A stretch of DNA of 64,000 nt, taken from the NCBI GenBank assembly GCA_028695965.1, contig JAQVHZ010000004.1, positions 29,097-93,096 of the forward strand, in the 5' to 3' direction. The DNA is from Thermoguttaceae bacterium. GTDB taxonomy: Bacteria; Planctomycetota; Planctomycetia; Pirellulales; Thermoguttaceae. A program made the translations under genes and the position numbers. Below the pieces are notes generated by a model, which worked only from the letters and a program-made list of their open reading frames with translations, had not been told where the DNA came from and searched no databases. Within the stretch, counting starts at the first letter, position 1, and the number at the start of each line of letters is the position of its first letter. Below are positions 12,138 through 15,711 of the stretch, one piece after another.

Positions 12138-12854
12138 ATGTCCTCTCCCAACGCCCCTTCTCTTTCCGTCGATTCCCCGGCGCCTAGAAAATACGACGCG
12201 TGGACGCTCTTTCTCGTCGTCTGGCTGATTGTCGTAAACGCCGCTATTCTTGCAATCTCAGTCGTTCAGGGGGACTCGCTCGTCGGGATAGGCGCGGCGC
12301 TGACTGGCGTAACGTTCGTCGTCTTGTGCGGGATGGGAAAGACGTCCAGCTATTTCTTTGGGCTTGTCAATATCATTCTCTATGCGATCGTCGCCTGGAA
12401 AGCGAAATACTACGGGGACTTCATGCTCAACGTCCTCTATTATCTCCCGACCAACGTCGCCGGTTGGTTCATGTGGCGCAAGAGTATGGACGCGGAGACG
12501 GGGACCGTCTGCAAGAGACGCTTGACGCTCAAGAACAATCTTTTTCTCGCGGCGCTGTGCGTCGTCTGCGTCTGCGTTTACGGGCTGTTTCTCAAAAAAG
12601 TCGGCGGGAACCTGCCGTTCGTCGACAGCGTCACGACGGTTCTTTCGGTCTTTGGGCAGTTCCTGCTCATCAAGCGCTATATCGAACACTGGATTATCTG
12701 GATCGTCGTCGACGTCGTCTCGGTCGTCATGTGGGTCTACGCGCTCAATACGGAAGGGGAAAGCGTCGCAACGCTGCTGATGTGGATCGTCTTTACCATG
12801 AACGGATTTATCATGTTCTTCAAATGGCGCTGCGATATGAAGCAACAAAAATAA
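12138..12854 (+). CDS. pnuC: Nicotinamide riboside transporter PnuC-like
   Basis: YFFGLVNIILYAIVAWKAKYYGDFMLNVLYYLPTNVAGWFMWRK; next to nadB. Confidence 0.88.
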   Translation: MSSPNAPSLSVDSPAPRKYDAWTLFLVVWLIVVNAAILAISVVQGDSLVGIGAALTGVTFVVLCGMGKTSSYFFGLVNIILYAIVAWKAKYYGDFMLNVLYYLPTNVAGWFMWRKSMDAETGTVCKRRLTLKNNLFLAALCVVCVCVYGLFLKKVGGNLPFVDSVTTVLSVFGQFLLIKRYIEHWIIWIVVDVVSVVMWVYALNTEGESVATLLMWIVFTMNGFIMFFKWRCDMKQQK

Positions 12855-13248
12855 TCAAATCGCCCTCGCCTGCTTTCTCGGCAACGGTTTGAATCCGGTT
12901 TTCTATGTTGTTCTTTGTGGGACTATTGACCTCGTCGCCCGTTGTCAGACATTCAACGCGCTCTCGTGAAAATCCAATGTCGATGAGCTTGTCTCGCAAC
13001 TTGGTCACATCGGCTACGGCATAGTGCAAGTCCCGAATCCGGACGTCATCGTAATCATTGACGCCGACCAGAATCGCCCAGCGCTGCGAATTGGGAACGA
13101 CCGAAAGCCCGCGCTCCGAAGAGTCGTCCGCATAGGTCCGACCAGAAAATGCGAACAATATCAACAGCAGGAAATTAATCGCGCAAACGACTGGAATATT
13201 TTTGGCATATAATCTCATCATATCTTCTTTCGTGTTATCACCTGACAT
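12850..13248 (-). pseudogene. Caspase-like (peptidase C14) protein, 3'-truncated at junction with pnuC
   Basis: Signal-like N-terminus then RWAILVGVNDYDDVRIRDLHYAVADVTKLRDKLIDIGFSRERVECLTTGDE...AGEGDLIIF; the frame then runs into the antisense of the pnuC tail. Confidence 0.78.
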
Positions 13249-13436: not shown

Positions 13437-13506
13437 CTTTTGTCTCGACTCAGCCCGCCTTAGCGCCTTAACGGCGCTGTTGTGGCGGGCTGCGTCAAGA
13501 CAAAAG
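13437..13506. other. Long imperfect ~70-nt stem-loop just downstream of the FGE stop codon
   Basis: CTTTTGTCTCGACTCA-GCCCGCC...AGCGCCTTAACGGCGCT...GGCGGGC-TGCGTCAAGACAAAAG. Confidence 0.7.
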
Positions 13507-13516
13507 ATTAGCTGCG

Positions 13517-14752
13517 CTATTTATTAGGAACAAGGGAGAGCCGGAAGCCGAGGCCGTTGCTCAGGTAGTCGACGTCGTTGTGGCCACGGAAAGCCGACCG
13601 GCAGTGCTGGGCGACGAAGTCCCAGCCGCCGCCGCGCAGCACGCGGCTCGAGCCGACTGCTGGACCGAGTGGATCAGTCACGGTACCAGTTGGATAGTCG
13701 TCGTACCAATCGGCGCACCATTCATAAACATTGCCATGCATATCAAAAAAACCCCAAGGATTCGCAGAATAACTGCCAACAGGCGACGTCCTGCCCAAAT
13801 ACTCGCCTTTGACGTCAGTTCCGTAAGGGAAGTAGCCGAAGCAATTCGCCTTGTCGCCGTTAAGAGAAGAGCCCCAAAAGAAAGGAGTCGTCGTGCCGGC
13901 GCGGCAAGCGTATTCCCACTGAGCTTCTGTGGGCAAGCGAAATTCTAGCCCTTTTAGTTCCGCAATTGCGTTTAACTTGTTGATGAATTCCTGACAGTCA
14001 TCCCAGCTTACATTTTCCACCGGGAAATTATCTGTATTCAGACCGGATACCTTGCTCTTTCCACCTCCCGTGTTGGAAAAATCGCTCGGATTGTATCCCA
14101 TGACGCTCCGCCACATTGCCTGCGTTACTTGAGTCTCTAACATCCAGAAGCCGCGCGTTAAGACAACCTCGTGTTGTACTTCGTCATCAAACCGGTTGTC
14201 TTCTTCCTTTGGGCTGCCCATCATAAAACTGCCAGCAGGACACCAACGGAAACGATAGGAAACGCCATTGATTTCAAGCGCGCGCAAATCCCCCGCTTTC
14301 TCACCGACAAAGGATGATTCCTGTCGTTTGGCTGGAATTGCAGCTGATTCAGGATTGGGAAAGGAAGATTCCTGTCGTTTGGCTGGAGTTGCAGCTGATT
14401 CAGGATTGGGAAAGGATGATTCCTGTCGTTTGGCTGGAGTTGTAGCTGATTCAGGATTGGGAAAGGACGATTCCTGTCGTTTGGCTGGAGTTGCAGCTGA
14501 TTCAGGATCGGGAAGATCGGAAAAAGAAGACGGCCGCTCTTCCGCTGAAATAACCGTCGTTATCCGCGCTCGCAACTTCAAATAAAGATCCCAAAGCGGC
14601 GGATGAAAAGCCGCCGCGAGCGCGGCGAGGATGAGACAACTGCCGAAAAAAATGAGCGCTATACCTACAAAACTGGGCAAGACCCCCTTACGAACTAAAA
14701 ACGCCAAAACAAAAGCCAAAAAGAAGATCAAAAGGTATGCGCGTCTTCCCAT
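13517..14752 (-). CDS. FGE/SUMF1-domain protein with N-terminal TM region, repeat linker and putative DGR variable C-terminus
   Basis: RFRWCPAGSFMMGSPKEEDNRFDDEVQHEVVLTRGFWMLETQVTQAMWRSVMGYNPS...GNVYEWCADWYDDYPTGTVTDPLGPAVGSSRVLRGGGWDFVAQHCRSAFRGHNDVDYLSNGLGFRLSLVPNK. Confidence 0.9.
   Translation of the reverse strand: MGRRAYLLIFFLAFVLAFLVRKGVLPSFVGIALIFFGSCLILAALAAAFHPPLWDLYLKLRARITTVISAEERPSSFSDLPDPESAATPAKRQESSFPNPESATTPAKRQESSFPNPESAATPAKRQESSFPNPESAAIPAKRQESSFVGEKAGDLRALEINGVSYRFRWCPAGSFMMGSPKEEDNRFDDEVQHEVVLTRGFWMLETQVTQAMWRSVMGYNPSDFSNTGGGKSKVSGLNTDNFPVENVSWDDCQEFINKLNAIAELKGLEFRLPTEAQWEYACRAGTTTPFFWGSSLNGDKANCFGYFPYGTDVKGEYLGRTSPVGSYSANPWGFFDMHGNVYEWCADWYDDYPTGTVTDPLGPAVGSSRVLRGGGWDFVAQHCRSAFRGHNDVDYLSNGLGFRLSLVPNK
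14313..14516 (-). repeat. Four 51-bp tandem repeats (17-aa unit SSFPNPESAATPAKRQE) in the FGE linker
   Basis: Copies begin at 14313, 14364, 14415 and 14466 on the plus strand; near-identical. Confidence 0.92.
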
Positions 14753-15114: not shown

Positions 15115-15451
15115 TGTAACAAGTCAAAACGACCTTAGCAAGTAGCAGCGAGATTGTTTGACGAAATATTTTTCTCCTCCTTAACCGCCAACGACCCCGC
15201 TTCAAGTTGGATACTTAATTCGGATAACACGAAGCGTTACAAAAAACTTTCTTATTTTCCTAAACGGCTTTGTTGAATAATGGCGTCTGCAAAAACACGT
15301 AGTCCCAAGCGCCGCAAATAAGTAAAGCGCCCTTGCTTTTATCACTGTCTCCGCCTTTTGATTTTCTATGGTTCGATTTTTCAATCGTTCTCCAAAAACC
15401 TTTTTTATTCGGAACATTGCCGTTTCAACAAACGAACGGCGACGGCAACCA

Positions 15452-15711
15452 ACCTGCCGTTCGTCGACAGCGTCACGACGGTTCTTTCGGTCTTTGGGCA
15501 GTTCCTGCTCATCAAGCGCTATATCGAACACTGGATTATCTGGATCGTCGTCGACGTCGTCTCGGTCGTCATGTGGGTCTATGCGCTCAATACGGAAGGC
15601 GAAAGCGTCGCAACGCTGCTGATGTGGATCGTCTTTACCATGAACGGATTTATCATGTTCTTCAAATGGCGCTGCGATATGAAACGACAAAAAATTTCTG
15701 ACGAATCTTGA
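15452..15711 (+). pseudogene. Duplicate of the pnuC 3' third
   Basis: aacctgccgttcgtcgacagcgtcacgacggttctttcggtc... nearly identical to 12609-12842; encodes NLPFVDSVTTVLSVFGQFLLIKRYIEHWIIWIVVDVVSVVMWVYALNTEGESVATLLMWIVFTMNGFIMFFKWRCDMKRQK. Confidence 0.92.

Follow-up and report, generated by a model that had tools for sequence, protein, structure and literature searches.

The end of a gene in the analyzed stretch of 64,000 nucleotides (the window) is very probably the variable repeat (VR) of a diversity-generating retroelement (DGR), carried by a receptor-like protein with a C-type-lectin/FGE fold (Table 1). The case for placing this gene in the class of DGR targets is strong, and we infer that the species itself has or recently had a trans-acting reverse transcriptase (RT) and template, which probably lie in the part of its genome that was not assembled. 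In such a system, an error-prone DGR RT would copy an A-rich template RNA, whereby the template adenines would become random bases in the cDNA. The cDNA would then home to the VR and take the place of the homologous gene end, giving the FGE-type lectin domain a new binding face.

Table 1. Location and properties of the target gene, its VR and the downstream structure in the window.
Feature	Position	Strand	Properties
DGR target gene	13517..14752	−	411 aa; N-terminal hydrophobic segments, four 51-bp tandem repeats, C-terminal FGE-sulfatase (CLec-type) domain
Putative DGR variable repeat	13532..13645	−	Codons 370-407, RVLRGGGWDFVAQHCRSAFRGHNDVDYLSNGLGFRLSL; based on the comparison with C70 and alignment to same-genus TR/VR pairs
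Long stem-loop, candidate DGR target-recognition hairpin/cruciform	13437..13506	−	70 nt; fold z = −7.0

Target gene, codon usage and surroundings

The sole Pfam domain in the target protein is PF03781 (FGE-sulfatase; residues 171-405, E = 4.7e-48). By sequence, the best match in the PDB was TvpA (2y3c, Treponema denticola variable protein 1; E = 9e-29), which was also the top Foldseek match of the AlphaFold model (mean pLDDT 83.8; E = 8e-20, TM 0.78). The surface geometry of the variable stretch is tentative in this model, since the pLDDT falls there to about 60-75. With the FGE domain extending to residue 405 and the match to TvpA, the VR is located at the C-terminus of a C-type-lectin-fold protein. 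Instead of the two active-site cysteines, C336 and C341 in human FGE, the target protein has only one Cys at the site (GGGWDFVAQHCRSAFR), so that FGE activity is not expected of it. The FGE family of the genome is large and comprises about 20 domains. Four tandem repeats with a period of 51 bp (14309-14514, identified by TRF) encode the linker that connects the hydrophobic N-terminus to the FGE domain; it is composed of repeats of SSFPNPESAATPAKRQE.

The C-ending block spans codons 370-406, at about 13645-13535, and its translation and NNC codons were as stated in the preliminary description. All 17 codons at the Asn-type positions of related templates end in C; farther upstream in the gene, these amino acids have C-ending codons in 67 of 186 cases (36%; Fisher, 1e-7). 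The abrupt change in codon usage described before is thus present but not unique: counting all codons, the maximum of C-ending codons per 24-codon stretch is 18 in the target gene, a value equalled by three further genes in the window. The shift was therefore rejected as evidence by itself and is weak when taken alone. In the scaffold, a Pro and an Arg that are kept in 46 and 44 of 48 homologues, respectively, are Val and Leu in the target VR. As neither is an expected variable position, the target VR departs slightly from the general template pattern.

Two copies of the 3′ third of pnuC (12609-12851 and 15451-15693; 243 bp, 98.4% identical) flank a segment that contains the target gene and a truncated Peptidase_C14 (caspase-domain) gene of 142 aa (12820-13248), whose match ends at position 78 of 233 of the profile. 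The duplication and the cut of the caspase gene at the first junction suggest a recent insertion or recombination of this caspase-FGE island. No FGE motif was found within about 1.5 kb of the pnuC loci of relatives; these loci are not callable as empty sites because their flanks are short and the homologues distant (52% and below). A caspase-domain gene also adjoins the DGR target in the same-genus genome G002. Together with published DGR conflict systems (PMC10907252), these neighbors suggest that the target protein may bind ligands as the sensor in a conflict or signalling system.

Comparison with a paralogue and the downstream stem-loop

A paralogue on contig C70 of the same genome ends in the same VR block as the window gene (W). 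With a related template (L132) as reference, differences between the two VRs occupy 23 of the 29 A positions and 8 of the 79 remaining ones (p = 1e-11), which agrees with the A-specific pattern proposed earlier. The differences at codon positions 1, 2 and 3 number 13, 14 and 4 in the block and 64, 45 and 88 in the upstream part (codons 151-369; Fisher, 6.5e-4), so that third positions account for 4 of 31 and 88 of 197 differences, respectively. The constant stretches flanking the variable zone (CGCGTGCTGCGCGGCGGC and GGCTTCCGGCTCTCCCTTGTTCCT) are identical in W and C70, which, together with the C-ending of all 17 variable codons, suggests recent homing.

In G002, a pair sharing one template differs at 16/29 A positions and 1/79 other positions. 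Two pairs in the same-genus genome G009 show values of 19/29 and 6/79, and 16/29 and 7/79, and the remaining paralogue pairs in the window's genome range between 18 and 22 of 29 at A positions and between 12 and 18 of 79 elsewhere. The W/C70 pair is thus intermediate between fresh pairs and old relics; given its 8/79 differences at non-A positions, compared to 1/79 in G002, W and C70 are not the clean output of a single current template. Enrichment at A positions alone would also fit selection on a binding face. Retrohoming is indicated by the sparing of third positions in combination with the shared 3′ structure. An FGE gene cluster on contig C77 of the own genome (L089) has C-termini resembling decayed VRs, with diverged third positions and the scaffold Pro changed to Val in two of them; these genes are possible fossil targets.

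The stem-loop starts 10 nt past the stop codon. In phage-type DGRs, hairpins with stems of 7-10 bp and GRNA loops are found 4-34 bp after the VR (Guo et al., 2011, PMC3240598), and the hairpin/cruciform downstream of the VR is needed for target recognition in Bordetella phage BPP-1 (PMC3240598). With a distance of about 26 bp from the VR, the window stem-loop agrees with these in place, whereas its stem is longer and its loop different. Judged from its place, it probably marks the recipient site of homing.

The segment 13410-13512 with this stem-loop recurs once in the own genome, 3′ of the C70 VR, with 91% identity, and no copy was found in the 19 other genomes of the genus. The fold z-scores of the 3′ region are −7.0 and −4.2 behind the two fresh VRs (W and C70). 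In three relic paralogues of the own genome, no stem-loop is present and the values range from −1.3 to 0.2. Stem-loops of different sequence (z about −3) are also located 3′ of the VRs in G009 and G002, the remote VR of G002 among them. The z-score is only a rough guide, since a VR-like end on contig C26 of G009 has a similar stem-loop with a weak z of −0.8. A more general reading, in which the VR and the long 3′ stem-loop form a portable homing module by which a DGR recruits several unrelated N-terminal architectures in trans throughout the genome, with an RT cassette that is sporadic and may be horizontally shared, seems rather unlikely.

Search for the retroelement and competing explanations

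The genome assembly (3.43 Mb, 153 contigs) is 82% complete. No RT was found in it with PF00078, a same-genus DGR RT protein or the PADLOC RT model; these searches work, since both RT profiles match in five relatives. DNA searches of the assembly with the VR and with the template of the same-genus genome G010 returned VR-type copies only and no A-rich template. The DGR HRDC accessory gene was not found in the assembly either. An HRDC-like match on contig C102 (28% identity over 78 residues, in a frame of 654 aa) was rejected as accessory gene and is taken as a RecQ-type protein, judged from its length. The preliminary description was correct in stating that the window has neither RT nor template, and this extends to the whole assembly, where a template repeat next to a DGR RT, as envisaged there, could not be located. 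The genome as assembled thus holds no complete DGR system; given the completeness of only 82%, the cassette may simply be missing from the assembly.

Other genomes of the genus contain intact DGRs that act on targets of this kind, which supports the reading of the block as a variable region of DGR type in an FGE-fold protein without a local RT. In G009 (C177, JAGBDD010000027.1), an HRDC gene, an RT, a template and an FGE-fold target were found; the target gene has a 126-bp copy of the template, whose 19 mismatches are all at template A. The same arrangement is present in G002 (C23, JAFSDX010000054.1), where 18 of 18 TR/VR mismatches are at template A. A 3.2-kb contig of G010 (C16) carries the HRDC gene, RT and template. 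Furthermore, a remote VR on another contig of G002 has 15 mismatches to the G002 template, all at A and none elsewhere. This match at every non-A position shows that trans action is real in this genus and supports the interpretation of the window gene as a trans target.

A DGR RT was detectable in 3 of 20 genomes of the genus, and VR-like ends were found in 17 of 20. RTs in two further genomes (G018 and G012) were not counted, as neither matched the DGR RT query (cut-off E 1e-20) nor had a VR match on the same contig. In the family, DGR RTs of the genus type are present in 13 of 119 genomes. The VR proteins of two genus genomes (L092 on G009:C189 and L098 on G008:C62) are identical but for one residue (N/K), so some VRs of the genus are not freshly diversified. 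The degenerate DNA signature of the block was found in 72 stretches in GTDB genomes, among them Thermoguttaceae (ruminant guts), Chlorobiaceae, Desulfobacterales and archaea; AAC-rich template-like copies occur at no fewer than nine loci, and the signature forms template/target sets in many phyla. The block pattern was not found in IMG/VR, nor the window stretch in phages or plasmids, and there is accordingly no sign of a phage origin.

Regarding the present state of the system, there is a nearly even chance that a full DGR cassette in the unassembled 18% of the genome diversifies the target gene and C70 in trans. The remote VR of G002, the stem-loop common to W and C70 and the trans diversification of targets reported in Thiohalocapsa PB-PSB1 (PMC10907252) argue for such an active system. 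However, its cassette has no direct trace in the assembly, and the VRs of W and C70 show about 10% non-A differences. These differences fit better to a frozen relic, in which a DGR of the lineage once generated the VR but RT and template were later lost, leaving the block fixed. This is a serious but somewhat less probable explanation, which also accounts for the RT and template missing from the assembly, for the few genus genomes with a detectable RT relative to those with VR-like ends, and for the graded decay among the paralogues of the genome. The incomplete assembly in 153 contigs, the preserved C-ending of all variable codons and the identical constant stretches of W and C70 speak against it.

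Without any retroelement, the block could result from ordinary paralogue divergence, with selection acting on FGE-like surface residues at a gene end of locally high GC content. The equally C-rich stretches in other window genes, the large FGE family and the enrichment at variable positions also in older paralogues are compatible with this, but it is very unlikely, considering that third positions are spared in the block and not upstream, that W and C70 have a hairpin in common and that DGRs of the genus target this very end of the domain. Least probable is a gene conversion or segmental duplication between two FGE genes that spread VR and hairpin without retrohoming: it fits the W/C70 similarity running past the VR into the hairpin but leaves the pile-up of differences at template A, compared to about 10% elsewhere in the segment, unexplained.

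Comparison with known DGR systems

As a DGR target, the protein is closest among solved structures to TvpA of T. denticola, which is likewise an FGE-type C-lectin target with a C-terminal VR and shows about 29% identity in the structural alignment. For the DGR system of TvpA itself, RT and template are known.

The DGRs of the same genus (G009:C177 and G002:C23) resemble the window gene in the FGE-fold target, in a C-terminal VR of equal length and frame and in downstream hairpins, and the G002 system additionally in its caspase gene and in having a remote target. RT, HRDC accessory gene and template are present in these systems, in contrast to the window genome, which shows none of the three. 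The hairpin sequences differ from that of the window target, and the scaffold Pro and Arg are kept where the window target has Val and Leu. The present case shows that a comparison of paralogous VRs and their downstream hairpins can reveal DGR targets despite an RT missing from the assembly, and the many VR-like ends and few detectable RTs in the genus make it directly testable whether they are relics or depend on a trans-acting or transiently acquired RT.

For the DGRs of Thiohalocapsa PB-PSB1, unlike the present case, RT and template are located in the genome that carries the targets, and variation was measured at the population level (PMC10907252). As found here, the targets are several and dispersed, with FGE-type domains among them and with diversification in trans, some loci are incomplete and conflict-system domains lie nearby (PMC10907252). 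The gut Thermoguttaceae (Planctomycetota) join the organisms with dispersed DGR targets.
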